Source of the DNA: Spiroplasma endosymbiont of Cantharis nigra
Lineage (GTDB): Bacteria > Bacillota_I > Bacilli_A > Mycoplasmatales > Mycoplasmataceae
Direction of reading: 5' to 3'
DNA length: 64,000 bases
NCBI RefSeq assembly: GCF_964019925.1
Contig: NZ_OZ026470.1
Span: 1,173,521-1,237,520 of the forward strand
This document shows, piece after piece, positions 7,515 through 43,495 of the stretch. Under the pieces are notes generated by a model that worked only from the letters and a program-made list of their open reading frames with translations, ran no database searches and had not been told where the DNA came from. The translations under genes and the position numbers were made by a program. The stretch's first letter is position 1, and every line of letters starts with the position of its first letter.

Positions 7515-7520
7515 TATAAT
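7515..7520 (+). promoter_or_regulatory. -10 box for the secreted protein gene
   Basis: TATAAT 54 bases upstream of the ATG at 7574. No good -35 is visible; the upstream stretch is a T-rich tract. Confidence 0.45.
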
Positions 7521-7573
7521 GAAAGTGGTTATGAATTTAACTACAGAAAGGTATTAATAAAAGGGTAGGAAAT

Positions 7574-23986: not shown

Positions 23987-24015
23987 AAAATACTCATTTA
24001 TGAGTATTTTTTTTA
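23987..24015 (+). terminator. Terminator after rpsI
   Basis: AAAATACTCA, loop TTTA, TGAGTATTTT and a T run. Confidence 0.9.
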
Positions 24016-24112
24016 CTTCTATAAAATTTTTTTTCATTTTTGTATTAGTCAGCTATTTATAAAAATATAAGTGGAGTTTGTATTAATATATAAGTGTAGG
24101 AGCGATAAAAAT

Positions 24113-25066: not shown

Positions 25067-25089
25067 ATAAAACCCTTTAAAATAATTTA
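25067..25089. terminator. Left half of an IS-split ldh terminator
   Basis: AAATAAAACCCTTTAAA here and TTTAAAGGGTTTTATTT after the IS (26451-26467) would form a perfect 17-bp stem with loop ATAA if the element were removed. In the present sequence the halves are 1.35 kb apart. Confidence 0.75.
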
Positions 25090-25090
25090 A
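25078..25090. repeat. IS target-site duplication, left copy
   Basis: TAAAATAATTTAA, repeated exactly at 26443-26455 on the other side of the element. The length is 13 (11 if the terminal bases are assigned to the IS), long for IS3. Confidence 0.7.
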
Positions 25091-25158
25091 TGAATATAAT
25101 TCTCTAAGTATACATAATGTTAAAAAAACATAGAATGTATACAAGGAGAATTTTTTAT

Positions 25159-25506
25159 ATGTCAAATGTTACAGGTAATAAATCAAATATTTTAAGTATC
25201 AAACAAAAGCAAGAGTTAGTAAATAGACACTATAATGAAAATAGAACTTTTAGAGAGCTTTCAATTGAATATGGTGTATCTTATTCAACAGCAAGAAACC
25301 TTTGCATAAATTATAAAATATATGGAGCTGAATGTTTAATTTCAAAAACAGGAAAGCACAACAAGCATTCTAGTGTTAGACCAAATTCTTTAGACCCAAA
25401 AGATAAGGAACTAGCAATTCTTAAAAAGAAAATTAAATGATTAGAAATGGAAAATGAAGTTATAAAAAAGTTCAATGAAATGATGGAAAATCAAAAGAAA
25501 AAATAA
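25159..25506 (+). CDS. IS3-family transposase OrfA
   Basis: 115 residues. A helix-turn-helix of the HTH_29/transposase_8 kind is at residues 20-60 (FRELSIEYGVSYSTARNLC). A leucine-zipper-like end, ELAILKKKIKWLEMENEVIKKF, split here as ELAILKKK and WLEMENEVIKKF, mediates multimer formation. AAGGAG precedes the chosen ATG; the upstream in-frame ATG at 25117 lies in the leader hairpin. The heptamer A-AAA-AAG at 25464-25470 is in phase for a -1 slip into orfB. Confidence 0.9.
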
Positions 25507-26408
25507 ATTATATTTATAAAATCATAGAAGAATTTAAATACAAATATCGTATTTCGGATTTATGTAAGCTTTTAAAAATTACTAGATCAAGTTACTATAG
25601 GTGAGTTAGCAATGGTAAAAAGGATTATATTATAAAAATAGACATTAATATTGCAAAAGAAATAAAGTTTCACTTTTTTAAATATAAAGGTATTTATGGT
25701 AGTCCAAGAATAACAATATGTTTAAAAAATAAGGGAATAAAGATTAGTCAAAATAAAGTAGCAAGAATAATGAGAATATATAAGATGTATTCAGTAATTA
25801 GAGTTAAAAAGATGATTAGAAAACCTAAGGAAAAGAAAAGTATTACTCATGGACCCAATATTGTTAATAGAAAATGAGAAATTTATGAGAAGAATGAATT
25901 CTGAGTGACTGACATTACTTATTTACCATTAAATAATAAATTTGCTTATCTTAGTATTTTAAAGGATGTTAAGACAGGATTTATAGTTGGTTATAAATTG
26001 TCTAAAATAAATGATATAAAAATTTATAGAGATACTCTTATTAATTCAACAAAATATAGAAATGACATAAGTAAATCGCTTATAATTCACTCTGATAATG
26101 GTTCTCAATATACATCATTTTTTGCAAAAAACTATTCAAAAAAGAATAATATAATTATTTCTTTATCAAGACCTGGAAATTCAATAGATAATGCAATGTG
26201 TGAAACATTTTTTTCTTCATTAAAAGAGGAATGAAAAAAAGAGTTAAAAGTAAACTCTTTTGAAAAATTGGAAAGCTCTATTAGTAAATATATTCACTTC
26301 TATAATTATGAAAGAATACGAGTTAAAACTTCTAACCCTCCATCTTATGAATACTTTAATAATTGAAACAAAATAAAAGTAATTGCATTAAATGCAATTA
26401 CTTTATAA
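25470..26408 (+). CDS. IS3-family transposase OrfB, made by -1 frameshift
   Basis: 312 codons in the -1 frame relative to orfA. HTH_21-type N-terminus (YRISDLCKLLKITRSSYYRW, then GIYGSPRI), then the DDE integrase core: Asp in WVTDITYL, Asp in IIHSDNGSQYTS and Glu in AMCETFFSSLKEE. The C-terminus has HFYNYERIRVKTSNPPSYEY. No good start codon or ribosome binding site was seen for separate synthesis, so the active protein is probably the OrfAB fusion. All catalytic residues are intact. Confidence 0.9.
26376..26404 (+). terminator. Hairpin at IS 3' end, inside orfB
   Basis: AAAGTAATTGCATT and AATGCAATTACTTT form a perfect 14-bp inverted repeat around one base. It encodes the last residues of OrfB and probably ends IS transcription. 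Confidence 0.6.
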
Positions 26409-26442
26409 AAAAACATTTTGTATACTTGACAAAGTATATTCA

Positions 26443-26455
26443 TAAAATAATTTAA
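26443..26455. repeat. IS target-site duplication, right copy
   Basis: TAAAATAATTTAA, identical to 25078-25090. Confidence 0.7.
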
Positions 26456-26503
26456 AGGGTTTTATTTATGTATCATATAATATTAAAAGAAGGATGTGCA
26501 TTA

Positions 26504-27421
26504 ATGAAAGAAATAGAATTATTATCTCAAGATGGTAAAAAAATTTATACTTATATTTGAGATAAAGTTAAAGAAGTAAAAGGAGTGTTGCAAGTTGTAC
26601 ATGGAAGCTGTGAACACTCAAAAAGATATGATGAATTTGCAAATTTCTTAAATAAAAATAATTGAGTTGTAATTTCAAATGATCATAGAGGTCACGGTAA
26701 AACAGCAGATTTAAAAAATCAAGAACTAGGTTATTTTTCAGATCATAATGGTTGGAAAATTCTAGTGGATGATCTATACTTAGTAAATAGTTTTATTAAA
26801 AAAAATTACTCAAACAAAAAAATAGTTATGTTAGGTCATTCAATGGGAAGTTTTTTAGCAAGAAATTATGCAATTGATTATGGATTATCAATTGATGGGT
26901 TAATTCTTAGTGGAACTGCTTGGGAAAGTAAATTATCTTTAAAGTTTGGTATTAAAGTTGCAAAGTCAAGACAGAAAAAATATGGTCCAAAAAATATTGA
27001 TAAGTTTATATGAAATTTAAGTTACAAAAAATTTAATAAAAAATTCAACAAAGAGGGAAATACGGGGAATGAGTGATTATCTATTGACTCAGGCAATGTT
27101 AAAAGTTTTAATGAAGATCCATTATGCGGTCAAATATTTACAACATCTGCTTTCAAAGATCTTTTCATGGGCCTTTTATATATTCAAAATAAAAAAAATA
27201 TTTTAAAAATTAGAAAAGATTTGCCAATAATTTTAGTTTCAGGTTCTGATGATCCAGTAGGAAATTATGGAAAAAAAGTTGTTAAAACCTATAAAAAATT
27301 TAAAAGGGCAAAATTAAATGTAGAGATGAAAATCTATGAAAACTTAAGACATGAAATACTTTTTGATATTGATAAGAAATTAATTTTTGAAGATACTTTA
27401 AACTTTTTAAGTAAAATTTAA
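26504..27421 (+). CDS. Alpha/beta hydrolase, lysophospholipase-like
   Basis: 305 residues with several TGA Trp codons. Catalytic triad candidates: Ser in GHSMGSF, Asp in VSGSDDPVG, and His in NLRHEILFD. HGSCEHSKRYDEFANFL and NDHRGHGKT are typical of the PldB/monoacylglycerol-lipase group. It probably hydrolyses lipid esters, useful to an organism that takes host lipids. AGAAGGA lies ten bases before ATG. The gene lies just right of the IS; before the insertion it followed ldh behind the terminator hairpin. Confidence 0.85.
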
Positions 27422-27452
27422 AAATTGATATAAATATTTATATCAATTTTTA
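27421..27452. terminator. Bidirectional terminator between convergent genes
   Basis: AAAATTGATATAAAT and ATTTATATCAATTTT form a perfect palindrome that serves both the hydrolase gene and coaX. Confidence 0.85.
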
Positions 27453-28187
27453 TTTATTAAATTTTATAAGTCCCTTAAAAATTAATGATTCATCGAAAGT
27501 AAAACCATCTTTTATGATATCTTCTTTGAATTCTATTGAGTTTCCACCAGTAAAAATCGCAAAATCCAATTTTAATTTTTTAATAACTGAAGTTAGCATT
27601 AAATAGTGAGCATTAAAAGCACCAACATTTATAGCATCTATTGTATTTGTACCATAAAGTTTATTTGACTTTTTATAGTTATTATTTTGTAAAAGAACTG
27701 CACTAGAGATTAAACAATTTAATGAGTTTTTTAGTCCTGGACAAATTATTGTTCCCTTAAATTTTCTATTTTCAATTATAGCAATAGTTGAAGTTGTACC
27801 CATAGAAATTATTGCTCCATTTTTAATTTCATAATTATCCATAGCTCCATAAAAGTTTGATATAAAATCTGCTCCAAGTTTATTAATATTGTCTACTTTA
27901 AATAATTCACTTTCGATATCATAGTCATCTCTTAAATTTGATATGGATACTCCAATATTATTTGCAAATGCTCTCATAATATCATTTCATTCAGGTACAA
28001 CAGATACATAACTAATTTTATCAATTTCTATATTATTGTCTAAGAAATATTTTCCCAAAGCCTTACTTCTTCTTCAATTAGGGTCCTTTGTTTCTGGCCT
28101 AATTATTTTTTTCAATTCATTTGTTTTTTTATTTCACAAACGGAAATCTGCAGTGGTATTTCCAATATCAACTAGTAGTATTTTCAT
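27450..28187 (-). CDS. coaX: Type III pantothenate kinase
   Basis: 245 residues. Motifs: VDIGNTTADFRLW (phosphate-binding start), NKLGADFISNFYGAM, ISMGTTSTIAII and a C-terminal FTGGNS. It phosphorylates pantothenate, the first step of CoA synthesis. The ATG at 28187 has AAGGAG upstream on the minus strand. TGA is used twice for Trp. It is divergent from coaD, the fourth step of the same pathway; the middle steps are not in this window. Confidence 0.9.
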
Positions 28188-28288
28188 TTATATACTCCTT
28201 TCCTTTATTTTATTACATAAAATAAAATAAAGACATTTTTTTCACTAAAATAAATATAAAATTATAAATGTATTAAGGAAGGGTTAAT

Positions 28289-28741
28289 ATGAGAAGAGCT
28301 ATTTATCCAGGGAGTTTTGATCCTTTTCATGAAGGTCACTTAAATATTTTAGTGAAAGCTACAAAGCTATTTGATGAGGTTATAGTTGTTATTACAAAAA
28401 ATATTTCAAAAAATGAAAATCCTGATCTGAAATATAGAATTGAAAAAATTAAATCTATGACTAAAGGATTAAAAAATGTAAAAATTGAAATAAATGAAAG
28501 TGAATTAACTGCTTACTTTGCAAAACAAAGAAAAATAAAATATATGGTAAGGGGAATTAGAGATTCTCAAACTTTAAATTATGAAATAGAGCTTTATGAT
28601 GGAAATAAAAGTATTTATGATGAATTAGAAACTGTATTATTTTTATCAGATAATAAAAATAGAAAAGTTTCGTCGACATTATTAAAAGAAATAGAAAAGT
28701 ATAAAAGTGAGGAATTTATATGTGATCAATTAAAGAAATAG
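28289..28741 (+). CDS. coaD: Phosphopantetheine adenylyltransferase
   Basis: 150 residues. GSFDPFHEGHLNIL carries the nucleotidyltransferase HxGH, RGIRDSQTLNYEIEL the substrate site, and KVSSTLLKEI the second nucleotide motif. It joins AMP to phosphopantetheine to give dephospho-CoA. GAAGGG lies upstream. Its 3' end overlaps pta by 22 bases. Confidence 0.93.
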   Translation: MRRAIYPGSFDPFHEGHLNILVKATKLFDEVIVVITKNISKNENPDLKYRIEKIKSMTKGLKNVKIEINESELTAYFAKQRKIKYMVRGIRDSQTLNYEIELYDGNKSIYDELETVLFLSDNKNRKVSSTLLKEIEKYKSEEFICDQLKK

Positions 28742-29703
28742 AGAATAAAATTAAAGCAATCAAGAAAAAACAAAGAATTGTTTTCCCTGAAGGGACACAA
28801 GAAAAAATACAACAAACAGCTAATTTTTTAGTAGAAAATGATTTAGCAATACCTGTATTGTTATTTAATACAAAAGAAGAGGTACCAAGTAATTTAAGCG
28901 AAAAGATAGAAGCTGTTATTATGGACCAATATGATAAAGGTAAAATGATTAAATTATTTTTGGAAGTAAGAAAAGATAAAGCTGATGAACAAACAGCAAA
29001 AAAACTAATGGAGCAGAGAACTTACTTTGGTGTAATGATGATGAAATTAGATTTAGCTGATGCAATGATTTGTGGTTTGGAGTATACAACAGCTGATACA
29101 TTAAGACCTGCTTTGCAAATTATTAAAACAAGTAAAAAATATTCAATCGCTTCATCTGTTTTCTTAATGTCAAAAGAAGAAGAGATTTATTTATTTACAG
29201 ACTGTGCATTAAATGTTGACCCAAATGCAAATCAATTAGCAGATATTGCTTCAATGTCTGCTGATTTTGCTCAACAATTAAATGAAGAAAATGTTCAAGT
29301 AGCAATGTTGAGTTATTCAACAAATGGTTCGGGTATGGGGACAAGTGTAGATAAAGTAAAAGAAGCTGTGAATCTATTAAAGTCAAGAGAGTCAAAAGGA
29401 ATAACTTTTGATGGAGAAATGCAATTTGATTCTGCTTTTGATAAAAGTGTAAGAGTGAAAAAATACCCAAAAACAAAAATTACAAAAGAACACCCAGATG
29501 TTTATGTATTTCCAGATTTAAATTCTGGTAATATTGGATATAAAATTGCTCAAAGATTTGGTAATTTTCAAGCTGCAGGACCTTTTATTTTAGGTTTAAA
29601 TAAACCTGTAAATGATCTTTCAAGAGGCGCAACTTTAGAAGATATTAAACAAACATCAATAGTAACAATATATACATCAATGTTTAATGGAGGAGACAAG
29701 TAA
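28720..29703 (+). CDS. pta: Phosphate acetyltransferase
   Basis: 327 residues. RIVFPEGTQ at the N-terminus, DLADAMICGLEYTTADTLRP in the middle and the conserved end VFPDLNSGNIGYKIAQRFG. It converts acetyl-CoA and phosphate to acetyl phosphate. The start lies inside coaD, where GAGGAATTT sits upstream; a standard-code reading would begin at a later ATG because codon 2 is TGA. The stop overlaps ackA (TAATG). Confidence 0.95.
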
Positions 29704-30893
29704 TGATTTTAGTAGTAAATGCTGGAAGTAGTTCAATTAAATTTAAATTATTTAATATAGCAGATAAAAAAAATCCAATTTCAACTGTTGAAGGATTAGC
29801 AGAGAGAATTTCAGTAGATGGTAAATTGACAATTGAAATTAATGATAAAAAACATGTATTTGAAAATGAAATGAAAGATCACTTAGACGCAGTTAAACTA
29901 ATTTTAACTAAGTTTACAGAACTAAAAGTAATTGATAAACCTGATGATATTAAAGGAATTGGTTTTAGAGTAGTTCACGGTGGAGATAAAATTGTTAAAA
30001 CAGTAGAATTAACAAAGGAAATTAAAAAAACCATTGAAGATAATATAAGGTTGGCACCTTTACATAATCCAGGAGCATTAACATCAATTAATGCTTTTCA
30101 AGCAAGTTTGCCAAAAGCAAAACTTGTAGGTTGTTTTGATACATCATATCATCAAACAATGCCGGAAATTAACTATATGTATACAACACCATATAAATGG
30201 TATACAGATTATAAAGTTAGAAAATATGGTTTTCATGGAATTAGTTATGAATATATTGCCTATAAAGCTCAAGAAATATTTAACAAAAAGCAAGAAAAAT
30301 TAAACCTAATTGTTTGTCATTTGGGAAATGGTGGAAGTATTTGTGCTATTAAAAATGGTAAATCTTATAATACAACTATGGGATTAACTCCATTGGCAGG
30401 ATTAATGATGGGAACAAGAAGTGGAGATATTGACCCTTCAATTATTCAATATATCTCAAAAGAAACTGGTAAAGATATCTATGAAATTACAGATATTTTA
30501 AATAAACAATCTGGTTTACAAGGAGTTAGTGAAGTAAGCAGTGACATGAGAGATGTAATTTCAGCTTCTGAAAAAGGTAATAAAAAAGCTTCCTTAGCAG
30601 TTGAGCTTTATACTCAAATAGTTGCTGATTTTATAGTTAAATTTGCAAACCAAATAAATGATAATATTGATGGAATTATATTTACTGCAGGAATTGGCGA
30701 AAATGCAGGAGTAATTAGAGAAAAAATATCTCAAAAATGTAGATTATTAGATTTACATATTGAATCTAAATTAAATGATGAAAAATATTCTGACTATTTA
30801 TTAATTTCTTCTAATAAATCAAAAATTCCAGTTTTAAAAGTTAAAACTAATGAAGAGTTAATGATTTGTAATCAAACTCTAAAATTTTTATAA
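29703..30893 (+). CDS. ackA: Acetate kinase
   Basis: 396 residues, full length. VVNAGSSSIKFKLF at the N-terminus, FDTSYHQTMP, the catalytic region CHLGNGGSIC, and TGLPMGTRSGD-like GLMMGTRSGDIDPS; FTAGIGENAG near the C-terminus. It makes ATP from acetyl phosphate and releases acetate. It is coupled to pta by a one-base overlap. Confidence 0.97.
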   Translation: MILVVNAGSSSIKFKLFNIADKKNPISTVEGLAERISVDGKLTIEINDKKHVFENEMKDHLDAVKLILTKFTELKVIDKPDDIKGIGFRVVHGGDKIVKTVELTKEIKKTIEDNIRLAPLHNPGALTSINAFQASLPKAKLVGCFDTSYHQTMPEINYMYTTPYKWYTDYKVRKYGFHGISYEYIAYKAQEIFNKKQEKLNLIVCHLGNGGSICAIKNGKSYNTTMGLTPLAGLMMGTRSGDIDPSIIQYISKETGKDIYEITDILNKQSGLQGVSEVSSDMRDVISASEKGNKKASLAVELYTQIVADFIVKFANQINDNIDGIIFTAGIGENAGVIREKISQKCRLLDLHIESKLNDEKYSDYLLISSNKSKIPVLKVKTNEELMICNQTLKFL

Positions 30894-30923
30894 AAAAATG
30901 TCTAATACAAATAGTATATCGAT

Positions 30924-30952
30924 TTGGTTTTTTTATTGTATTTAGATATAAT
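30924..30952 (+). promoter_or_regulatory. Promoter for the DUF1600-like gene
   Basis: TTGGTT (30924-30929) and TATAAT (30947-30952) with a 17-base spacer. Confidence 0.55.
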
Positions 30953-30981
30953 TTTTACAATGAGAAGTAAGGTGATATATT

Positions 30982-32277
30982 ATGAAATTTAATAAAGATT
31001 TTGAGTTTTCTTTAAAAGTAATGATTTTAATGGTTTTACTTTCTTTTTTGGCTTTCGATTTTGTTTTACAAATTTATGCTCCTAAAAAAAATCTTGAAGG
31101 TATTCCTACATTAGAGAGATTAAATATATATTATTCATTTTTTACAACTCAATCAAATTATGCAGTAGTTTTTTATTTAGCAATGGCTATTTTTATGAAA
31201 AAAATATATAATACAAAACCGCCATTCTCAGTAGAGTTAGCAATGACAGTATATATAAGTTTAACTATGATTGTTTTTTGACTTGGATTAGTAGCATCTG
31301 TTGATGAAATGGGTGCTTATTATCCGTCAAGTTGGGTTTCAACAAGTGTCTTGCATGTTTTTATTCCAAGTATTATGATTGGTTATTTTATTTTCTCTTG
31401 TGGAGATCAATATTATTCTCCAAGAAGATATTCAAAATTCTCTTTACCAATGAATTGTTTTTATCCAACAGGATATTTAATATTTGCAATGATAAGAGGA
31501 GAATTAAGATATAAATTTTATTCTCCTGAATTCTATTCAAGAATTTATAGTCCCCCAAGTGATATTTTAAATCCAACTGCTCCTGGTTATAATTATTTTT
31601 GAAATAATATTTGAAGTCCAGAAAATGGGGTCATTGATAAATCAAGACATTTTACTGATCAAATGTGATATCCATACTGATTTTTAAATATTCATCAGTA
31701 TGAATTATCTTATACAGTTGATGGGCAAAAATATATTGCTGGGGAAAGCTTTGGTCCAGAATGATTAGTTATATGTACTTTTTTATTTGCTTGTTTATGC
31801 ATAACTTTAATAGTTGTAGGATTGCAATTTGTCTTTCTAAAATGAAATAATGGTAAGTTCTATAGATGACATGATATTGAGGGAAAATTAATTACAAGAG
31901 AAGAACATGCATATCGTATACAAAAAAGAAAATTACAAAAAATTAGATTAAAAAGCCAAAATAAGATGGATATAATTCACAAAAAAACAGAATATAAAGT
32001 TTTTCTAAAGGGAATTAAATCGCTGGAAAAAAATGAAAGAAAAGTTAAAAAAAATGAATATATCAAGTCTAGAATCTTAGAGCATAAATTAGAAATTGCT
32101 TCTATTAAAAATGAAAAAATAGCTCAAAAAAATAATAAAATTAAAATTAAGGGATGAATATTATCCCTTAATTATAAAGATAGATCTTTTGTTAAGGAAA
32201 ATTTGAGAGAAGCTGAACGATACAAAAAACTTGTTAAAAACGGAGTTTTGATATTTAAAACTAAATATGTTAACTAA
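30982..32277 (+). CDS. Polytopic membrane protein, DUF1600-like
   Basis: 431 residues with many TGA Trp codons. About six membrane helices are spread over residues 10-290, with the motif FFTTQSNYAVVFYLA in the second; this FTTQSN pattern is typical of Mollicute DUF1600 membrane proteins. A loop of about 60 residues before the last helix is rich in Tyr, Trp and Pro. The last 140 residues are a very basic, probably coiled, cytoplasmic tail. Function is unknown. AAGGTGA precedes the ATG. Confidence 0.65.
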
Positions 32278-32306
32278 TAAAGGTAGGAATTTGCCTTTAT
32301 TTTTTA
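32276..32306 (+). terminator. Terminator after DUF1600-like gene
   Basis: AATAAAGG / CCTTTATT stem, then a T run; it begins at the stop codon. Confidence 0.8.
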
Positions 32307-32351
32307 TATAATAATAGATGGTATATAAAACATCAAAGGGGCAATGGGGTT

Positions 32352-35300
32352 ATGGTGCATCTAAGAGCTAGAAATTTAAAGTCAAAAGCAATTTTAAAGA
32401 GATGATTATTTTCTGGAGAAGAAGCTGTTTTTGGTGAGGATTTTGCCCTTGTTGAATTAGAAGATGGCAGTGAAGTTAAAATAAAGTCTAACTATAATGG
32501 TCTTATTGCAAGAACTATTAAAATAGGTAGTCATATCAAAAATGGTAGTATTTTAGCAAATATTGTTATTGGAGATTTAGAAATTGAAAAGTATAAAAAA
32601 GAAAGTCTTAAAAAAACAGAAGTTAAATTAATTAATAAGCAAGAACTTGATATTAAAAGTGAAAACTTAAATTCAAATAATACTGAAAAAACTGAGGATA
32701 TAAAGTTTAATACTATTAATAATAAAGCAATTTCTAATAAAAATATTGAATCAACAATAGTAAGTGATTTTAACAAAAAAGATATAGATAATAGTTCAAT
32801 AAAGTCACAAGAAAATAAAGAGGTAAATGAAATTATGAGCGAATCAAATATGCAGCCAAAAGATAAATTTGCTCAAATGAGATTAAGCATTAAAGAATCA
32901 ATTAAAAATGCTCCTCAACATAAATATAATGGTGATTTATCAAAAGAAGAACTGCTAAAAATTACTCCAGAAGAGGTAAAAAAATCAGATAGTACTAATT
33001 TATTTTCAACAGATAATGTTAGTGGTGTAAGTAAATTTAGGCAACTTGTACAAGCAAGAAAAGAAAAGCTACTTGAAGAAAATAATTTTAAAGAAGTTAA
33101 AGACAATGCAGGTGAAATCAATGCAATGTCAAAAACAGACGAAAAGGGTCGTCCTTTAATTATGAGAAATATAATTCAAGCAAGAATTGAAAAACTTAAT
33201 AGTGCTGGGGGAGATACAAGAGTTTTACAATCTGACATCGTAGCTACCAAAGATAATGCTATATTAGACCACCAGAGAGTTGAAAATAATAGTGAGCAAC
33301 AAAAACACTTACAAGAGGAAAATAATGAATTTAAAGAAGGACTTGACGTAAAAAACCAAAATTTTGGAACTACATCAACTTTTAAAAGGGAAAATAATGT
33401 ATCAAATGAATCGTATTTTAAAGAAAAAAAATCAACATTAGTAGATTCTAATGATGCAATTGATTATAGTGAGGCCATAATGAGTAAAGATAATTCAAAT
33501 AAATTTGATGAAGAAATTAACTCAAAAAGTAACTGAAATTATGCAGATACAAAAATCTCTAATCTTCATGACACAAGAAAAAGATGAAATGTTATAAAAA
33601 ATCATGATGATAGAGCAGCTATTAGACAAAGAAGAGAAGCAATAGAACAAGGTTTAACTGAGGATAATTTAAGTTTTAGTAAAAAAATAAAAGAAATAGG
33701 AATACCTCAAGAATTTCTGAGAGAAGTTTTATATCAAGATCCAGAAAGTGGAGCTACAACATATGTTTTATATAACGAGACTCCAAAAGGTAGAATAGAA
33801 TTTGAAAATTGATTAAGAACTACAAATTTATATTCAGCTTATAAAGCTGAAAAGCGTTTCAATGAAAAGAATCAAGGATTAGAATTTGATGGTCAAATAA
33901 ATAATAAAGACTTAGCTCAAAATGAGGAACAAGATTCATATAAAAATAGAGAACGTGATTTATATAAAAAAATACATTTAAAAATTTCTGAAAATGAAAA
34001 CTTAAAAACTATCGATAATGAACTTGACCAAACTATGACATTTGAAACTGTTAATACAGCTGAATTTGATAGAGATGAGATTCCTGAAAAAACACCAAAA
34101 GTTATTCAAAAGGAAATTAAAACTCAAATAAGTAAAAAGGATGATGAATTAGTGAAAGTCTATGATAAAAAAATTGCTGATGAAACATTGGATTTTTTAA
34201 AGACTGAAATTAAAGAATTACATAGAACTCTAAAAGAACAAAATCAATTACACGCTGCTACTTCAAAATTAAATCAACAGTCAAATTTTAATGCTGGTCC
34301 TGATACTTTTGGTCAAATGATGCAATATATGTTAATGCAAAATATGATGCAAAATATGAATCAGAATAAAGTTTCAAATAGAGATATTAGTGCAAGTGAT
34401 TTAAAATCAGTGATTAAAGAGGAAATTAATTCTTTTGCAAATGAACTTAAAGAAAAAAAACGTAAAGAAGAAGAACAAATTCTTTTAGAGCAAGAAATCA
34501 TTGCAAAAGTTGAAAGACAGTTTAGAGAAAAATATGAGAGAGAAAGATATCAAGAAGAGCAATTACACCATGAACAAAAAGAAGTAAAGAGACTACAAAG
34601 AAAAGAAGAAAATATTAGGGATATCAACTTTGAAGTTGATAAACCAGATAACTCTGTAGGATATTTACAATTTGAATCTAATGATGAAAATAAAGTTATT
34701 GAAAGAGAAAAAGTTAATAAAAATAGAAATTCTGCTGTAAAATCAATGATTTTAAGCCAAAACTTTATTCCTCCATTAACAATATCAACAGAAATTGATA
34801 TGAGTTCTATTTTAAAACTAAAACATATGTTAAAACAAACTCAAAATCATATTAAATTTACAACAATTTCATTTATAGCTAAATCTATCTCAATTGCTCT
34901 TGAGGAATATCCAAAATTGAACTCAAGTTATGACCCAGAAACAAATGAAGTTATTATTAAAAAATATCATAATATTGGTCTTGCAACTGAAACTAGTGAG
35001 GGTTTAATTATTCCAGTTTTAAAATTTGTTGATAGATTATCAATAAAGGAAGTTGCAATTGATATTAAGGAAATGACATCAAGACTTCGTGCTGGAGAAC
35101 TTTTAAATTATGAATCAGAGGGAAGCACAATTACAATTTCTAATTATGGTAATATAGGTGCAATTCAAGCAACACCAACAATTTTTTACCCAAATGCTGC
35201 AGTTATTGGAGTAGGAAAAGTTGTTAAAAAACCTGTAGTAGTTGATAATGAAAAATTAGCAATTAAGGCAATTATGCATATGAGTTTAACAATTGACCAA

Positions 35301-35387
35301 AGAATAATTGATGCAGCAGAAGCTGGTAAGTTCTTAGCAAAAGTTAAAGCAATTCTTGAAAAACCTGAAATTTTAACAGTTTCTTAA
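32352..35387 (+). CDS. E2-like acyltransferase-domain protein, probably catalytically dead
   Basis: 1011 residues, about twice a normal E2. Residues 20-75 resemble a lipoyl domain (LVELEDGSEVKIKSNYNG then GSHIKNGSILANI), but Gly39 stands where the lipoylated Lys should be. Residues 80-780 are long, polar and charged, with repeats of the type Q-A-R-x-E-K-L, a Met/Gln-rich piece near 34310-34370 and coiled-coil stretches near 34430-34620. Residues 790-1010 are a clear 2-oxoacid dehydrogenase E2 catalytic fold (STITISNYGNIGAIQATPTI). The catalytic His of DHRxxDG is Gln983 (DQRIIDA). No E1 or E3 gene is nearby. I infer a structural or regulatory role; enzymatic E2 activity looks unlikely. Confidence 0.75.
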
Positions 35388-35416
35388 AATACAACAAAAT
35401 TGTTGTATTTTTTTTG
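35386..35416 (+). terminator. Terminator after E2-like gene
   Basis: AAATACAACA, loop AAAT, TGTTGTATTT, then a T run. Confidence 0.9.
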
Positions 35417-35426
35417 CTCTTTTTAG

Positions 35427-35432
35427 TATAAT
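35427..35432 (+). promoter_or_regulatory. -10 box for tRNA-His
   Basis: TATAAT 20 bases before the tRNA 5' end. Confidence 0.5.
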
Positions 35433-35452
35433 AAGTAAGTGCAATATTTTAT

Positions 35453-35529
35453 GGCGTATATGGCGAAGTGGTTAACGCTCCGGATTGTGGTTCCGGCACT
35501 CGAGGGTTCAATTCCCTTTATACGCCCCA
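35453..35529 (+). tRNA. tRNA-His (GTG)
   Basis: 77 bases with CCA encoded. The acceptor GCGTATA pairs with TATACGC, preceded by an extra 5' G opposite C73, the hallmark of tRNA-His. The anticodon stem-loop is CCGGA TTGTGGT TCCGG, giving GTG. The T arm contains GGTTCAATTCC. Confidence 0.95.
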
Positions 35530-35540
35530 TTAAAGAATTT

Positions 35541-35573
35541 AAAGTCTCTTTTTTTAGAAAAGAGACTTTTTTA
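35541..35573 (+). terminator. Terminator after tRNA-His
   Basis: AAAGTCTCTTTT pairs with AAAAGAGACTTT, then a T run. Confidence 0.9.
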
Positions 35574-35596
35574 TTTAAAATATCGATAACTTAATT

Positions 35597-35611
35597 GAGG
35601 TGATTTTTATT
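35597..35611 (+). promoter_or_regulatory. Ribosome binding site pointing to an ATT start
   Basis: GAGGTGAT begins at 35597 and ATT is 12 bases later. The same signal before acpP (GAGGTGAT at 37276) has its ATG exactly 12 bases later. The in-frame GTG at 35600 lies within the binding site itself. Confidence 0.55.
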
Positions 35612-36862
35612 TTAGATATAAATATTAAAGATGAAATTAAATTTACAAGTGAATTTAAAGATAAGGAGTTTATAAAGGTAAGTGAAGTTGAAAATGACAC
35701 TTTAAATTTAGATACTATATTTTTTAATGAAAAATATACATTTAATAAAAAAGAATACTATAGATTATTTATACGTCCAAGTTTATCAAATAAAAATGGT
35801 TATGATTATTTTCAAACATTTTTTTCTCATTCTATTGCTCTCCAAACAATTATTAATCTCAAGTCAGCAGCAATTAAATTTTATATAAAGACACCAACAG
35901 GAGCTGAGGTTATAAAAGTGGGTAAGGACGATTTACTTATTATTCCAAGTTATAGCATAACAGCTTGAAGAGATAAAACCTTTCGTATAAGTAATTTTGA
36001 TTTTATGCAATTGAATATACCAGCTGAATTAGTGGACGGTCAACAACAATTATTTATAACATATAGTGCTAGTTATAATATTGATGGTTATAGACTAGAA
36101 CCTCATTCAAATTATGGCACAATTGAAATTGATCGAAGAAATTTAACTCAGCATAAATATGAAACAAATAATAGTGCTATTACAATCTCTAATCTTGCTT
36201 ATGGTTATTTGAATTATGATTTTAATTATAAATATAAAAAAAATTACTTTGATTTAGTAAAAAATGATTTAAGTATTAAAGTAGAATCAAATTCCCTTAA
36301 TACTATAGATCCAAAAATGAAAATTAGAAGTAAGTATTCTTTATGAAATGAACTTCAATTACCAATTTTAGGTAGTAAAATGAATACTTTTATTAGTATG
36401 TTTTTAGAAGGAGTTAATAGAACAAATAAACTATCTTCAACACCAAAATTAAAGAGTTCAGAGGATTTTTCAAAATACTATAATATAAAAAAACTTAAAG
36501 ATAAATTTATATATCAAGATAATGAATATGAGATAGATAATGATAATTTTACTACGTACAAATTTATAAAAAATGTCGTTGAAGAGGATGAAAATGGAAG
36601 TTCTGGAATTTTATGAAATCCTTTATATAATAACTCAATTATTTATAATAGAGTTATTGACCTTAACTCAAGAGAATTATCAATAGACTATATTTCGGAA
36701 AACTTAAATAAAGAGTCATATGAAATAAATTACAGTGATGAGATCATAAATAAAAGATTTAATTTTTTAATAAATTGAAAAGTAGATGAGATAAATTCAA
36801 TAGGATGAAAAGAAAAGGAAAGCGTTATAAACTACATAAATGAAAATCAAAAAACTTTATAA
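35609..36862 (+). CDS. Unknown protein with probable ATT start
   Basis: 417 residues with TGA Trp codons. No signal peptide or membrane helix is seen; the protein is rich in Tyr, Asn, Asp and Lys with many alternating hydrophobic positions, suggesting beta structure. I recognise no family. No ATG with a binding site exists before the first conserved-looking part; the chosen start is ATT at 35609 (see site entry). The 3' end overlaps the next gene by 23 bases, which implies a two-gene unit whose second product has a membrane anchor. Confidence 0.65.
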
Positions 36863-37262
36863 ATATTTATTCCTGTTGATATTTTTTTTATCAATTATCT
36901 CTACTTTTAGCTTTGTAATTTTTTACTATATAAAATCTAGTAGTTCTGTTATTGAAACTGATACTAGTGTGGAAGATGATAAAAATCCTCCAGTAAGTGA
37001 GAAAAGTGATTTTGTTAAAACGAATCTAAAAATAAATTTTACTTTAGAGCAAAAGATGTATATTATTAATTTTTCAAAAGAGAGATATTTTATTTTGAAT
37101 GAGTTTAAATATTATTTTTTGTTAGAGTTTAATAAGTTAGGTCCTAAAAATAATAATATTGATATTAAGTTTTCAGTAAGTAATTTAGAATATCCAAAGG
37201 AGATTTATGTTCTTTATGAATGTGCAAATCATAGATATACTTGAAATTTTAAACTTATTTAA
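36840..37262 (+). CDS. Small membrane-anchored protein, unknown
   Basis: 140 residues. One N-terminal helix (YLFLLIFFLSIISTFSFVIF) follows a short basic start, so the rest is probably outside the cell. The remainder is polar and has no motif I know. It begins inside the end of the preceding gene. Confidence 0.65.
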
Positions 37263-37287
37263 GTTATAATTATTAGAGGTGATTTAG

Positions 37288-37512
37288 ATGAATTATTTTG
37301 AAGAAATTAAAAAAGCACTTTTAAATAAGGGTGCAAAAGGTACAATTACTAATAAAACAGAATTCAAATCTATGGGGTTAGACTCACTTGATTTAATGGA
37401 TATGATTGTTACTTTAGAGGAAAAATTAAATATTACTGTTTCAGATGAAGACTTATTAGATATTAAAAAAGTAAGCGATCTTTTAGAAATTATTGAGAAA
37501 TTAAAGAAATAA
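37288..37512 (+). CDS. acpP: Acyl carrier protein
   Basis: 74 residues. The phosphopantetheine Ser lies in GLDSLDLMDMIV, within the acidic helix typical of ACP. GAGGTGATTT precedes ATG. It carries acyl groups for lipid synthesis or lipid attachment. The CoA genes elsewhere in this window supply the prosthetic group precursor. It is followed after three bases by the Fur-family gene. Confidence 0.93.
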   Translation: MNYFEEIKKALLNKGAKGTITNKTEFKSMGLDSLDLMDMIVTLEEKLNITVSDEDLLDIKKVSDLLEIIEKLKK

Positions 37513-37515
37513 TTT

Positions 37516-37944
37516 ATGGAAAAGAAGCTTAATGAGTATTTGGAACTTTTTAAAAGTAAAAAAATAAAACTTACTGATGTAAGAATGTCTATGTTAAATA
37601 TTATAATTTCAAAGAAACATTTTACAATTAATGAAGTAATTGACATGGTAAAAAATGATTTAGGTTCTGTAAATGTAATGTCAATATATAATAATATAGA
37701 TTTATTTTTGGAATTACATTTATTATTTGCAAATACAATTAACGGTAAGCAAATAATTTATGAAGCAATCTCGCCGCAACTTATGCATATTTTTTGTGAT
37801 AATTGTGGAGGGTTAGAAGATCTAGAAAGTCCTTCCTTAGCAAATGAACTATTTTTAAGATTCTCTGAAATATTAAAAGATAAGGATATGACTTTAGAAC
37901 ATTTTAAATTAGAACTACATGGAATCTGTAAAAAATGTAAATAA
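37516..37944 (+). CDS. Fur-family metal or peroxide regulator
   Basis: 142 residues. The N-terminal winged helix has LTDVRMSMLNII and NVMSIYNNIDLF, the Fur DNA-reading pattern. CDNCG and CKKCK form the structural zinc site. The HIF-x-D and HFKLELHG positions are candidate metal ligands. Whether it is Fur, Zur or PerR cannot be told from this. Downstream are tRNA genes only. Confidence 0.88.
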   Translation: MEKKLNEYLELFKSKKIKLTDVRMSMLNIIISKKHFTINEVIDMVKNDLGSVNVMSIYNNIDLFLELHLLFANTINGKQIIYEAISPQLMHIFCDNCGGLEDLESPSLANELFLRFSEILKDKDMTLEHFKLELHGICKKCK

Positions 37945-38004
37945 TTTAATGTTGAATTTATACATAATATTTTTTAATGATATAATTAAAAGGTATTTTT
38001 AAAT

Positions 38005-38080
38005 AGGGGTATAGTTCAGTTGGTAGAACATCGGACTTCAAATCCGAGTGTCGTGGGTTCAAGTCCTGCTACCCCTGCCA
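38005..38080 (+). tRNA. tRNA-Trp (TCA), reads TGA
   Basis: 76 bases, CCA encoded. The acceptor AGGGGTA pairs with TACCCCT; anticodon stem TCGGA / TCCGA with loop CTTCAAA gives TCA. This is direct evidence that UGA codes for Trp. Confidence 0.97.
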
Positions 38081-38095
38081 AATAAAAAACTAATT

Positions 38096-38124
38096 TATAC
38101 CTAAATAATCTTAGGTATTTTTTT
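38096..38124 (+). terminator. Terminator between the two tRNA-Trp genes
   Basis: ATACCTAA / TTAGGTAT with loop ATAATC, then a T run. Confidence 0.8.
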
Positions 38125-38131
38125 ATTAAAT

Positions 38132-38207
38132 AGGGGTATAGTTCAGTTGGTAGAACATCGGACTCCAAATCCGAGTGTCGTGGGTTCAAGTCCTGCTACC
38201 CTTGCCA
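38132..38207 (+). tRNA. tRNA-Trp (CCA), reads TGG
   Basis: 76 bases, CCA encoded. It differs from the upstream tRNA at two positions: the anticodon loop is CTCCAAA (CCA), and the acceptor 3' arm is TACCCTT, giving a G-U pair at the second position. Confidence 0.96.
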
Positions 38208-38218
38208 AATAAAAGAAA

Positions 38219-38260
38219 AAAATAACGTTTTGCATTTAATTAAATGCAAAACGTTATTTT
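38219..38260. terminator. Large bidirectional terminator
   Basis: AAAATAACGTTTTGCATTT and AAATGCAAAACGTTATTTT form a nearly perfect long stem. It ends the tRNA unit on the plus strand and overlaps the stop of the DegV gene on the minus strand. Confidence 0.9.
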
Positions 38261-39120
38261 ATTTTTTTAGGTAGTAATGATTTTTTAATTGCTATAAGTG
38301 CTATTGTATCAATACCTGCATGTCAAGGAAACACAGTAGGTACTTTAGCTTCCTTAAACTCAAATTCATTTTCCTTTAAATAATTTTTTATTTGTTCAAT
38401 TATTTTATTATTTATTTCGTCTAGTGAAACAAGAAGTAATTCATATTCACTTTTCATTTCTTTTTTTAAAGCAGTCGTCATTTTATCTAATACTGCTTTG
38501 TAAGTTCTTCCCATTCCGATTTTTTTAGGTTTTTCTAATCATTGAATTGAAACTTTTGTTTTCATAAATTTTAAAATTGCTATTAGTAAAGAATTTGCAC
38601 GACCACCTTCAGCAAATTTTTTTAAATCACTTGGTATGATTGCAGTTCAAGAGTCTTTAGCTCATTTATCTGTTTCTTCTTGAAATTTTGAAGGTTCATT
38701 AATTCCAGATAAAATCATTTCTTCAAATTTTAAAGCTAATAATTGTGCGCAGTTAGCTGCAATAAAATGTTTAATAATTGTAACTTTTCCTTTATAGTCA
38801 TCTTCATTTGCTAGCATCACAGCAGTTTGATGCATACCAGATAAGTTTGAAGGAATTGTTAAATGAATTATATGATCAAATTCTTTTAACATTTCATCAT
38901 ATTTTTCCATTAATTCTCCTGGTGATGCTTGACTTGTTGTTGTACGGTTATTACCTGCTAAGACTTTCATTAAGTCATTTTTTTTAATAACTTCTGGTGT
39001 ATCAAAATAATCATCTTTGTTGTTAACAATTAAATGTAACGGTATTACCCTTATAAGTTTTGTATTATGCTCTTCTGGAATGAAACCAGTAGAACTATCT
39101 ACTAATATTCCTATTTTCAT
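38254..39120 (-). CDS. DegV family protein
   Basis: 288 residues with TGA Trp codons. ILVDSSTGFIPEE at the N-terminus and TTTSQASPGELMEKYDEML form the DegV ligand pocket; LTIPSNLSGMHQTA is the second loop. DegV proteins (FakB type) bind a fatty acid for phosphorylation by FakA, or bind other lipids. It is more distant from the two DegV genes downstream in the same cluster than they are from each other. AAGGAG precedes the ATG; 15 bases separate it from the next gene. Confidence 0.88.
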
Positions 39121-39135
39121 ATATATTCTCCTTAT

Positions 39136-39960
39136 TTATTTTCATATTCCTAATGCGAATGTTTCTCTACCTGTATGACAAGTAATAGTATTTGGCATTT
39201 CGTCTAAAAAGCCAAGTTTAAATCCTAAATTTATTGCTGCTTCCTTTACCATATTTAATGTTTCTTCATCAATTCTTGAGTAAGAAATATCTATTGTATC
39301 TTTAGTACTAAATTGTTTTAAAGCTGCCAGTGCTTCTTCAATTGCTTTTTTGAAAGTTCTAGTTTTACCATGTTTATCAATTTCTCCATCGTATTTTAAT
39401 ATTGGTGTAATTTTTAAGAACTTTGCAAGTCCAGCCGCCGCCTTACTAATTCTGCCACCTCTAACTAATTGATTTAATGATTTAGGAATGATAAATACTC
39501 TAAAATCCTTATTTGCTTTTTCTATTAAATCAGATATTTCTTGCGCATTTTTTCCTTCTTTAATTAATTGTAAAACTCAATGTACTTGTTTTTTTAAAAT
39601 TATACTTACTCCATTTGTATCAATTACAAATACTTTTCCTTTATAATCATCTTCATTTGATAACATTTTGCAGGTATTATATTGTCCTGAAAGGCCTTTT
39701 GAAAGTAATAGACATACAACTTGGTCATATTCCTTTAATAATTCATCTCATTTTTCCATCATTATACCTGGAATAGATTGTGAAGTTTTTAATAGCTGTG
39801 AATCATTTAAACTATAAAAGTCATCTGGTTTAAAAGATTCGTCATCAGCTATTTGTTCTCCATCTTCTTTAGTAATCATTAATGGCACTAGATAAAGATC
39901 TTTAATACTATTTATATCATTAATTCCACACGACGAGTCAGTAATTACAGCTATTTTCAT
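39136..39960 (-). CDS. DegV family protein, middle copy
   Basis: 274 residues. AVITDSSCGIND, LLKTSQSIPGIMMEKWDELL, LLLSKGLSGQYNT and VRGGRISKAAAGLAK are the ordered DegV motifs; the end CHTGRETFALG is the fatty-acid headgroup region. The start at 39960 has GAGGAG upstream; an ATG at 39975 in frame lies in the end of the preceding gene. It is a close paralogue of 39951-40802, a tandem duplication. Confidence 0.9.
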
Positions 39961-40802
39961 AGTTTCTCTCCTCATATTTGAAACGGCATAAAAGCAAACG
40001 TTTCTCTACCAGTATGACAAATAATTGTATTTGCTAGATCATCTAATAATCCAATTTCATAACCGGCTTCTGTTACTATTTTTTTAACAAGATTGATAGT
40101 CTCTTCATCGGTTCTTGAAAAAGAAATATCTATTTTCTTATTCTCAGGATAAAGTACTTTTAATAATCTTAATGCTTCTTCGACAGCTTTTTTGAAAGTT
40201 CTAGTTTTACCTTGCTTATCAATTTCTCCATTGTATTTTAGAATTGGAGTTATTTTCAATATTTTGGCAAGTCCAGCAGCAGCTTTACTAATTCTGCCAC
40301 CTCTAACTAATTGAACAAGAGACTTAGGAATGATATAACCGTGTATATCATTATAATATTTTTCAATAATATCTTTAATTTCTTCTCCAGTTTTACCTTC
40401 TTGAATTAGTGTTTGAACTAATTCTAATTGACGTTTAATAACGATACTTACACCATTATTGTCAATTACGTGTATTTTATTTATATATTTTTCTTCTTGA
40501 GAAAACATTCTGAATGTATTAAATTGTCCTGAAAGACCTTTTGAAAGTAATAAACAAACAACTTGGTCATATTCCTTTAATAATTCGTCTCATTTTGTCA
40601 TAACATCACCTGGAATTGACTGAGAAGTTTTTAAAAGTTGTGAATCATTTAATTTATAAAAATCATCTGTACTCAATTTTTCATCATCAGCTATTTGTTT
40701 TCCATCTTCTTTTGTGATCATTAGTGGAACTAAATACAGGTCTTTATAATCTTTAGTATTCTTTATTCCACAAGAAGAATCAATTAAAATTGCAATTTTC
40801 AT
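39951..40802 (-). CDS. DegV family protein, first copy
   Basis: 283 residues. It reads through two TGA codons at the end (QIWGEKLWK) to a TAG, so it overlaps the next gene's start by 10 bases; a standard-code reading would stop early at 39972. AILIDSSCGIKN, LLKTSQSIPGDVMTKWDELL and VRGGRISKAAAGLAK match the middle copy almost word for word. GAGGA lies upstream. Different fatty-acid preference of the two copies is plausible, as for FakB1/FakB2, but is inference. Confidence 0.9.
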
Positions 40803-40882
40803 AATTCCTCCTCTATATAAAAGACTTAATATATTATATAATTGTTTTGATATTATTCCAATAGAAAAGCCAGGTAATTAAT

Positions 40883-41467
40883 ATGAAATTATTTATAAAG
40901 TATATTAAAAATTTTAGTACAATAAGTGTTATTTTGAGCAATAAAAAAATTACTAGAACTGAAAAAGATCTACACTCAGCAATTTTATTTCATGATAAAG
41001 AAATTGTTGGTTTCAATATATTTAATTTCAAATCTAATAAAGCATTTTATTTAGAAGATAAGAACTTAAAAAGAAAAGTAAGACCAATTTTAAAAAAATA
41101 TTTAGGAGATTTTAAACTTGAGAGACAGTTTATTATTGCTAAAATAACTGAATGTGAAAAGATTCCTGAAACTCATCTATCAAAGTGTAAAGTTAATATT
41201 GGAAAAAAAGAAATTCAAATTATTTGCGGAGCTAAAAACGCAAGAAAAAATATTTATACAACATTGGCTACAGTTGGTTCTTGAATGCCTGATGGAATTC
41301 AAATTAAACCCGGAAAACTTAAAGGTTTTGACTCATTTGGAATGTTATGTTCAGCAAAGGAATTAGAAATTGATAATGAGAAATATAATAATGAAGGAAT
41401 TATGGAATGAGAAGTTGATGATTCATATATTGGTAAATCAATTTGAGAGGTTTTAAATGAAAAATAA
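40883..41467 (+). CDS. tRNA-binding-domain protein, YtpR-like
   Basis: 194 residues with TGA Trp codons. The second half is an OB-fold tRNA-binding domain like the PheT N-terminus: IAKITECEKIPETHLSKCKV, QIICGAKNARKNIYTTLATV, GSWMPDGIQIKPGKLKG and SFGMLCSAKELEI. Standalone proteins of this kind (YtpR) are common in Firmicutes; their role is unknown. The 3' end overlaps pncB by 11 bases. Confidence 0.85.
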
Positions 41468-42500
41468 GTTTAACATTGATTTAAGAATATTTGAAGATTA
41501 CTATTCAGCTGATTATTTTAAAAAAACTAGAGAGATTCTTAATAAATTTAAACCTAATCAATTAGTTACAATGCAATGGTTTCAAAGAAAAGAAAACACA
41601 GTGATTTGTGGTATTGAAATAATAAAAGAAATTTTAAAATTATCTAATATTAAAAATCTTATTGTTGAAGCTGTTGAAGAAGGAGAAATTGTAAATTCTC
41701 TAGAACCTGTTTTAAAAATAACAGGTAAGTATAGTGATTTTGCACATTTTGAAGGTCTTTTTGATGGAATTCTTTCAAGAGCTTCTACTGTTGCAACAAA
41801 TGCAAGAAATATCTCAATTGCTGCAAATGGTAAAAAGGTTTTAAATATGAATGATAGAATGGATTATTATACAAATCAACAAATTGATGGTTATGCTTCT
41901 TCAATTGGAGGAATTAAAAACTTGGTAACATATGCATCTTTTGAGTATTTGGAAGAAGAAACAATTCTAAATGGAACAATGCCTCATGCATTAATTGCAT
42001 CATTTAATGGAGATTTGATTGCTGCTACTAAGGCTTATAAAGAGGTTTTTCCTAATAATGACTTAGTTGTGCTTGTTGACTATAATAATGATTGTATAAA
42101 TGATTCTATAATGGTTTGTAATCACTTTAAAAATGAAATTACGGCGTTAAGATTGGATACTTCTTCAAATTTAGTAGATAAGTCATTAGCAAATATAAAA
42201 GAAAAGGATAATGAGCTTCATGGAGTCAATCCTACATTAGTAAAAATGCTAAGAGAAAAATTAGATTTAAATGGTCATCAAGATGTAAAAATTATTGTTT
42301 CTTCAGGATTTGATGAAAATAAAATTAGTTATTTTGAAAAAAATAAGGCTCCTGTAGACATTTATGGTGTAGGAGACGCTATTACCAAAAATAAAATTGG
42401 CTTTACAGGTGATATTGTATTAATTGATGGTAAAAAACAATCTAAATTTGGTAGAGAAAATGCCTTTTCAAACAAGATAAAAAGTATAAAATATAGGTAA
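41457..42500 (+). CDS. pncB: Nicotinate phosphoribosyltransferase
   Basis: 347 residues, the short Mollicute/archaeal type. Motifs include VEAVEEGEIV, ILSRASTVATNARNI, HALIASFNGDLIAATKAY and IIVSSGFDENKI, with VDIYGVGDAI near the end. It joins nicotinate and PRPP to form nicotinate mononucleotide for NAD salvage. It begins in the preceding gene; GAGAGG precedes the ATG. Confidence 0.92.
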   Translation: MKNKFNIDLRIFEDYYSADYFKKTREILNKFKPNQLVTMQWFQRKENTVICGIEIIKEILKLSNIKNLIVEAVEEGEIVNSLEPVLKITGKYSDFAHFEGLFDGILSRASTVATNARNISIAANGKKVLNMNDRMDYYTNQQIDGYASSIGGIKNLVTYASFEYLEEETILNGTMPHALIASFNGDLIAATKAYKEVFPNNDLVVLVDYNNDCINDSIMVCNHFKNEITALRLDTSSNLVDKSLANIKEKDNELHGVNPTLVKMLREKLDLNGHQDVKIIVSSGFDENKISYFEKNKAPVDIYGVGDAITKNKIGFTGDIVLIDGKKQSKFGRENAFSNKIKSIKYR

Positions 42501-42523
42501 TATTGTATAGAAAGCGGTTTCTT

Positions 42524-43483
42524 ATGAATTTGTTTAGAAAGAAAAAAACTAAAGTTAAAACTAATGTACTTGAAAATTCTAATGAAAAACAAGAAGACAG
42601 AGCTCCAAATCATTGAACTTATAATGATGACCCATTATTGAATATGGAACCTTTATTTTCAGATGACCCTGAGGCTCGCAAACTTTCTAAAAACTTTTCT
42701 GCATCTTCGAATATGGAACAATCAAATAACTCAGATTTAGCTGTAAGAGATAAGCTAATAGAGTTAAGAAAAATTGTTGGAGCAAAACAAGTAACTACTC
42801 AAAAAACAGATGGGGTATTAGGTTCAATTATTGATCGAGCAAGAAAAAACTCACAAGATATTCAAACTCAAGTACTCGAAAATGATCCTGTAATTGCTAA
42901 ATTACTTAAGATTGAGAATTTAAGAAAATCAGGAGGAGTAGATGAAGAACTTTACACCGATGTTGAAAAAATTAAAAGTAGCACTGTTAGTTATGCAGAT
43001 AGAGCAAAAGAATTTTATTCAAAACATACAACAATTAAGGGAGTAGAAAGTGAATTAGACAGAGTAAGGAGATTATCTCAAGAAACTCAAATTAGAAGAG
43101 AAGAGCAAAAAAGAGAAACTGCAAAATTTGAAACTGGAGAATTCGTTAAAGAATTGAAAGTAGACAAAGAACCACGTGTTGTTAAAAGTATTTTTAAAAT
43201 CGAACCAAGAAGATCTTATACATATGAGATTACTAAGGAACAGGAATTAAAAAATAAGTTGTTAGAAATTAAAAAGGCAAAATTTAGAAACATTGAAGAA
43301 GAAATTGAACTTACTATTCAAGAAATTGATTCAAAACAATTTAAAGATCAAAATAAAAAAGCTGAGTTTTTTGAAGAAAAACTAAAGGAATTTGATAAGT
43401 TGTTGAAAAATAGTACTAAAGAAAATAGAAAACCTGAACTTGAACTTATTAAACCAAGAAGAGTTCAAAATAAAAAGAAATAG
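42524..43483 (+). CDS. Charged, probably coiled-coil protein, unknown
   Basis: 319 residues, with one TGA Trp near residue 32. Nothing resembles a signal or membrane segment. Long helical, Lys/Glu-rich stretches fill the second half (EQELKNKLLEIKKAKFRN), and the end is strongly basic (RRVQNKKK). The start begins with a basic MNLFRKKKTKVKTN. The next gene, 12 bases downstream, has a similar character; the two may form one cytoskeletal or scaffold unit, but this is inference. Confidence 0.6.
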
Positions 43484-43495
43484 GGTGAATTTTAA

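Follow-up and report, generated by a model that had tools for sequence, protein, structure and literature searches.

A putatively non-enzymatic E2-like protein that co-occurs with MreB in Spiroplasma

Protein X (PDHX) belongs to pyruvate dehydrogenase (PDH), carries an E3-binding domain and has an E2-like core that lacks the catalytic His. The Spiroplasma protein described here, termed E2L, likewise has an E2-like core without this His, and PDHX (6h60) is among its sequence and fold matches. E2L differs from protein X in that it persists in genomes without PDH and shows no PF02817. The name E2L is used for the E2-like protein encoded at positions 32352–35387 of the window, which is the whole 64,000-nucleotide stretch of DNA that was analysed, and for its orthologues.

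The PdhC type of E2 (PF00198), e.g. the Bacillus stearothermophilus E2p (1b5s), resembles E2L in the core fold, with a near full-length alignment of the core, and in the presence of a lipoyl-type N-terminal domain. E2L differs from PdhC in the catalytic His (0 of 44 copies), in the Ser558 position, which is mostly Ala, in the lipoyl Lys, which is mostly lost, and in a linker of about 700 residues; in addition, no E3-binding domain was found, and no E1 or E3 genes lie beside it in the window. Fibril (Fib; NF033570) is alike by analogy only. It represents an enzyme fold, that of a nucleosidase, which these same bacteria have put to use in their cytoskeleton (PMC9710875). Fib matches nucleosidase families and not E2, and it is absent from those genomes of the sister family that keep E2L.

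In what follows, f1 denotes the Spiroplasma family, which includes the genome of the window, and f5 its sister family; genera, genomes and loci carry g-, G- and L-numbers, respectively. No paper recognised as describing E2L was found in the open-licence literature (papers without supplements).

Domains and catalytic positions of E2L

The gene and its features are located as follows, all on the forward strand.

32352..35387, +, E2L, E2-like protein, 1011 aa under code 4
32352..32576, +, lipoyl-type barrel without the lipoyl Lys, residues 1–75 (hhalign, PF00364 in an f5 orthologue, structure prediction)
32463..32468, +, Asp38-Gly39, hairpin tip at the lipoyl-Lys slot (profile alignment and placement by eye)
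33021..33227, +, conserved 69-aa module, residues 224–292 (20-row alignment, nine invariant columns)
33672..33881, +, small alpha/beta segment, residues about 441–510 (structure prediction; different in genus g8)
34095..34274, +, long helices, residues 582–603 and 606–641 (structure prediction; likely coiled coil)
34392..34610, +, long helix, residues 681–753 (structure prediction; likely coiled coil)
34701..35375, +, E2 acyltransferase-type core, residues 784–1008 (PF00198)
35139..35141, +, Ser930, equivalent of the catalytic Ser558 (Ala in 38 of 44 orthologues)
35298..35300, +, Gln983, which replaces the catalytic His610 (Gln in 43 and Arg in 1 of 44 orthologues)

The reading frame is open over 1011 aa under code 4, and its sole requirement is that TGA be read as Trp, which occurs at four sites; a wrong code or frame was therefore rejected. 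A tRNA-SeC (tca) predicted by ARAGORN at 38005–38080 of the window, adjoining a tRNA-Trp (cca) at 38132–38207, is most likely the reader of TGA as Trp under this code.

The orthologue sample consists of 39 genes from f1, two shorter ones from g10 (L072 and L087) and two from f5, and L071, which has a truncated start, was excluded from the full-length and barrel counts. Judged from codon substitution, the core is under strong purifying selection, with dN/dS values for the window copy of 0.011 against G043, 0.045 against G029, and 0.048 and 0.030 against G034 and G039, where dS is high. A pseudogene or decaying gene was ruled out by these values (0.011–0.048) and by the open frames of all 44 copies used.

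The initial annotation described the C-terminal domain as a 2-oxoacid dehydrogenase E2 fold, and this description holds. PF00198 matches residues 784–1008 with E 3.8e-64 (Pfam), a CAT-like E2 core fold is found both by sequence and by confident structure prediction of the single chain, and the core aligns over nearly its full length with known E2 structures. The reading of the DHRxxDG motif as DQRIIDA is also borne out in the window copy (D982-Q983-R984-I-I-D987-A988; the catalytic residue numbers Ser558, His610 and Asn614 are from the titles of PDB 1dpb, 1dpc and 1dpd). Orthologues share the change, with Gln in 43 and Arg in one of the 44 cores; none has an intact DHR, and His is present in 31 of 31 PdhC cores examined, which are those retrieved out of 52 PdhC-level matches.

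A second catalytic position is altered, a change that is absent from the initial annotation. At the equivalent of Ser558, the 44 E2L proteins have Ala (38), Ser (three, including the window copy), Thr (two) or Gly (one), and the PdhC proteins have Ser (16) or Thr (15). Position 930 was aligned with Ser558 on the basis of the 52 residues that separate Ser558 from His610. Asp982 is invariant in all 44 copies and Asp987 is found in 41 of them, and of 49 positions without variation in PdhC, 22 are shared by at least 90% of E2L proteins; the positions kept from PdhC may have a structural role.

The N-terminal barrel is related to Spiroplasma-family lipoyl domains with 90% probability by hhalign (profiles from 27 of 39 barrel rows and 18 of 28 lipoyl rows). 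One f5 orthologue matches PF00364 at 32.1 bits against a cut-off of 22.1; the window E2L has no lipoyl Pfam match listed at a limit of E 10. The barrel is predicted to consist of beta strands (pLDDT about 80), and the g10 copies are without it. It was originally stated that Gly39 stands in place of the lipoyl Lys. The Lys is indeed missing; Gly39 falls in the slot when placed by eye, but profile alignment puts Asp38 there. The absence extends to most orthologues but not to all of them: among the 39 with this stretch, Lys is at slot 38 in three, at slot 39 in three and at neither in 33. Lys43 and Lys45 were considered as a shifted lipoyl Lys and discarded, as both lie on the next predicted strand, off the tip, and thus no lipoyl Lys is seen in a nearby register. 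From these comparisons the barrel is old, because of its kinship with lipoyl domains by hhalign and PF00364, and most copies have not retained a lipoyl function, because Lys is present in only 6 of 39. With no His in 44 copies, the second catalytic position mostly Ala and the lipoyl Lys mostly lost, loss of the E2 reaction is well supported, and an enzyme function of E2L appears very unlikely.

Much of the middle of E2L is modelled with low confidence and is likely to be disordered. The proposal that this region is partly coiled coil agrees with the long helices predicted at 582–641 and 681–753, which are likely coiled coils. Inside the fast-changing linker lies the 69-residue module, which is absent from the initial annotation and which is conserved across all seven f1 genera with E2L (20 of 41 available rows). 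It comprises two similar motifs about 42 residues apart, FRxxVxxRxxxL followed by MRNIIxxRxxxL. The f5 copies have a similar motif pair, 41 residues apart; the module profile gave no match in the two f5 genomes with E2L. Profile matches above 20 bits are to E2L genes only in the 11 genomes searched, the profile detects no second strong copy in the genome of the window, and no PDB sequence relatives of the module were found up to E 1. A motif count of 71 versus 0.9 in shuffled sequences was given no weight, since the pattern was derived from the same related sequences. We propose that the module might be a docking site. The segment at residues 395–512 (profile from 26 of 40 rows) has no PDB match at E ≤ 0.001, which is a weak test with a modest model (pLDDT 72).

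Pyruvate dehydrogenase and the gene neighbourhood

The genome carries a separate complete pdhC about 71 kb upstream of E2L and an E1 gene about 74 kb upstream, both outside the window. As first noted, no E1 or E3 genes are adjacent; E2L is surrounded by coaX, coaD, pta, ackA and a gene for a membrane protein, and the locus thus lacks the E1/E3 operon context of an E2 enzyme. No E3-binding domain (PF02817) is listed for E2L at a limit of E 10 (Pfam), and PdhC from the same genome carries PF02817 at 48.3 bits.

A full-length E1 alpha gene (PF00676 with 233 bits or more) occurs in 52 of 60 f1 genomes, and in 36 of the 42 that have E2L. The six E2L genomes without it are G006 (85% complete), G017, G020 (which has only a fragment of E1), G021, G025 and G026. 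Five of them are without PdhC as well, and in G026 the PdhC match is interrupted by two stops. In all six, E2L is open, 936–997 aa in length, and has DQR. In the other direction, 16 of 18 f1 genomes that lack E2L keep E1. Independence of E2L from PDH is therefore well supported, and on the basis of gene content E2L is likely to work outside pyruvate dehydrogenase.

In many g1 genomes, that of the window included, E2L comes after coaX-coaD-pta-ackA, and coaD is also near E2L in G006 and G051. This neighbourhood is not found within the retrieved flanks in g4, g5, g8 and g9, and it is therefore not a conserved operon. The neighbourhood was set aside as evidence on function, and the membrane-protein gene accompanies E2L only in g1 and g10 loci.

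Elsewhere in the window, an IS3-type transposase is encoded at 25117–26408 by two overlapping open reading frames, the second with rve and HTH_21 domains, directly after a lactate dehydrogenase-like gene. Three similar DegV-type genes, one of them tested with Pfam, are found in tandem at 38254–40802 on the reverse strand.

Distribution and phylogeny of E2L

Strong MreB matches (E ≤ 1.6e-127) are present in 42 f1 genomes, and E2L is found in all 42. The remaining 18 have weak MreB hits (E ≥ 2e-61, the strongest in G002), which are taken for other actin-fold proteins such as DnaK, and E2L is found in none of them. The status of the two genes is also concordant in four of five f5 genomes. G259 has four full MreBs together with E2L; G260 has a 91-aa MreB fragment, and its E2L is ruined, being spread over several frames and containing a transposase-like open reading frame; G258 and G261 have neither gene. 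The exception is G150, where E2L is intact and every MreB copy is either interrupted by a stop or fragmented. It should be pointed out that the f5 genomes in which E2L is missing or damaged have also lost PdhC or carry it broken, and thus general genome decay may account for the loss there. Of 73 genomes tested from elsewhere in the order, 71 have weak MreB hits only. G137 and G168, both of family f4, carry MreB-like genes that are divergent (E about 1e-60), and their E2L profile match is only at PdhC level. No mreB is found near E2L within positions 24000–44000 of the window.

Fib is present in all 42 f1 genomes with E2L, in G037 as a copy in two pieces. It is found in none of the five f5 genomes, although G150 and G259 keep an intact E2L and G259 has four full MreBs. 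Thus E2L tracks MreB more closely than it tracks Fib, and Fibril was rejected as the partner of E2L.

In a maximum-likelihood tree of 45 cores (picked from 94 rows, with long branches flagged by the program), the E2L proteins of f1, g10 and f5 group together (97/99) and are separate from PdhC. A single duplication before the f1/f5 split would be a simple reading of this tree. Among 245 genomes drawn from the phylum, none outside f1 and f5 scores above 202 bits among the matches listed; E2L genes of f5 and of the other genera, except g10, score at least 239 bits. The RpoB tree, made by a quick method from 40 of 68 genomes with a match (G010 has none), requires at least four label changes, gains or losses, with G150 labelled a keeper. 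A single origin of E2L is assumed because the core tree gives one E2L group, and the tree as drawn then implies four losses, an ancient one in f1 and three in f5. When only well-supported forks are used, at least three losses remain by our own count; the pairing of G259 with G260 has an SH-aLRT of only 81. As a separate matter, the canonical PdhC of G039 in g1 (L022) resembles by eye the PdhCs of genus g7, possibly as a result of gene transfer.

Possible roles of E2L

The best explanation found is that E2L works outside PDH, as a non-enzymatic, multimeric hub derived from E2 that would organise or anchor the MreB cytoskeleton; we consider the chances that this is correct to be about even. A role other than in PDH, and tied to an MreB lifestyle, is well supported by the comparative genomics. 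The core would still form trimers or a larger cage, from which the coiled-coil arms would hold out the 69-residue module and the barrel without its Lys, each in many identical copies available for binding; the module or the barrel would then bind MreB or an MreB partner. The polar dumbbell, discussed as a possible symmetry-breaking element (PMC13310574), might be one site of E2L, although the make-up of the dumbbell is not settled. The initial annotation had suggested the reuse of an E2 core as a structural scaffold. It is well supported that the E2 reaction has been lost and that E2L does not depend on PDH; the structural part fits the co-retention with MreB and the repeated joint loss, with the G150 exception.

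Several observations speak against an MreB hub. S. eriocheiris encodes E2L, and the initial annotation had pointed to cytoskeleton proteomics as a place to look for the protein. E2L appears neither among the 16 Triton-insoluble proteins (Table 1 of PMC5289999) nor among the six ribbon proteins (Table 2 of PMC9582952) of this organism, both lists being of identified gel bands from one species. The MreB pairs 4-5 or 1-5 are described as sufficient for helicity and swimming in syn3B (PMC9710875), and MreB5 alone gives helicity to M. capricolum (PMC9663586). G150 keeps E2L despite damaged MreB, G137 and G168 have MreB-like hits and no E2L, and no mreB lies near E2L in the window. Also, co-loss by itself does not show physical contact between E2L and MreB. 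Much of this would suit a shape or motility protein that acts without MreB, with the joint loss reflecting the loss of a whole lifestyle trait: MreBs act without E2L in foreign cells (PMC9710875; PMC9663586), the tabulated ribbon proteins do not include E2L, and G150 has retained the gene with its MreB copies damaged. Nothing stands directly against such a protein, which draws on the same genome evidence as the MreB hub, and we regard it as possible though doubtful.

A metabolic role has to be weighed as well. Were E2L a non-catalytic structural subunit of PDH, like human PDHX or fungal protein X, and part of a mixed core with PdhC, the His-to-Gln change and the missing Lys would also be explained, as would the similarity to PDHX and the presence of full-length E1 in most f1 genomes with E2L. 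The genome comparisons argue against a protein X role, and those without PDH do so strongly: E2L is open in G017, G020, G021 and G025, which have no PdhC match or full E1, and in G026, where the PdhC match has stops, and it is absent from 16 f1 genomes with E1. No E3-binding domain was found either, the lipoyl Lys is mostly lost, and a PDH subunit is quite improbable. The same two features, together with the change of both catalytic positions in most members, make an acyltransferase that is still active by means of Gln983 or another residue scarcely credible, even though Asp982 is invariant, Asp987 is nearly so and the window copy has Ser930. The dead core might instead bind CoA or acetyl-CoA and signal the metabolic state, perhaps to motility. 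The coaX-coaD-pta-ackA genes ahead of E2L in many g1 genomes, coaD near it in G006 and G051, and the retained PdhC-invariant positions are consistent with a sensor, but this neighbourhood is not seen in the flanks retrieved from four genera and the kept positions may be structural, and a sensor is thus unlikely.

For E2L as a non-enzymatic MreB hub, a role as organiser or in polarity is likelier than one as part of the core motor, because MreBs alone give helicity and swimming and because the ribbon lists are without E2L. M. capricolum cells that have MreBs together with Fib are reported to kink with no one-directional travel (PMC9663586), and a factor for polarity or anchoring may therefore be missing from them. 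We tentatively suggest that a cage-forming PDH core has become a cytoskeletal organiser, whose many identical arms gather MreB filaments, perhaps as the polar dumbbell, from which the kink would start. If so, a metabolic cage was reused as a structural hub, and E2L would be a second enzyme-derived cytoskeletal part of Spiroplasma motility, beside the nucleosidase-derived Fibril and perhaps older than Fibril in the lineage. If E2L organises MreB, it would supply a missing genus-wide part of Spiroplasma swimming.

The 43 database relatives of the core are from named Spiroplasma (30), from records without an organism (12) and from a firefly assembly (one). The last, P0043 (Abscondita terminalis), has the E2L core and a coaD-type domain in one database protein, and looks like Spiroplasma DNA inside an insect assembly. 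Named records are mostly '2-oxo acid dehydrogenase subunit E2' or 'pyruvate dehydrogenase E2', with a few 'hypothetical protein'. Pathway reconstructions may therefore count a subunit that is unable to act as one, and some genomes that carry E2L are without any PdhC match.

A second, separate E2-like family was also observed (L073–L086 and L091; e.g. L084 at 5909–7657), in g8 genomes and in G048 of g9. Its proteins are about 580–760 aa in length, and PF00364 and PF00198 are both present in the one member tested. In 13 of 14, Glu occupies the place of the His, within the motif GYNEAVID. In several g8 genomes the gene is a few kb from pdh genes; it is open in the PDH-less G017, G020, G021 and G026, and G025 has only a 284-aa open reading frame.
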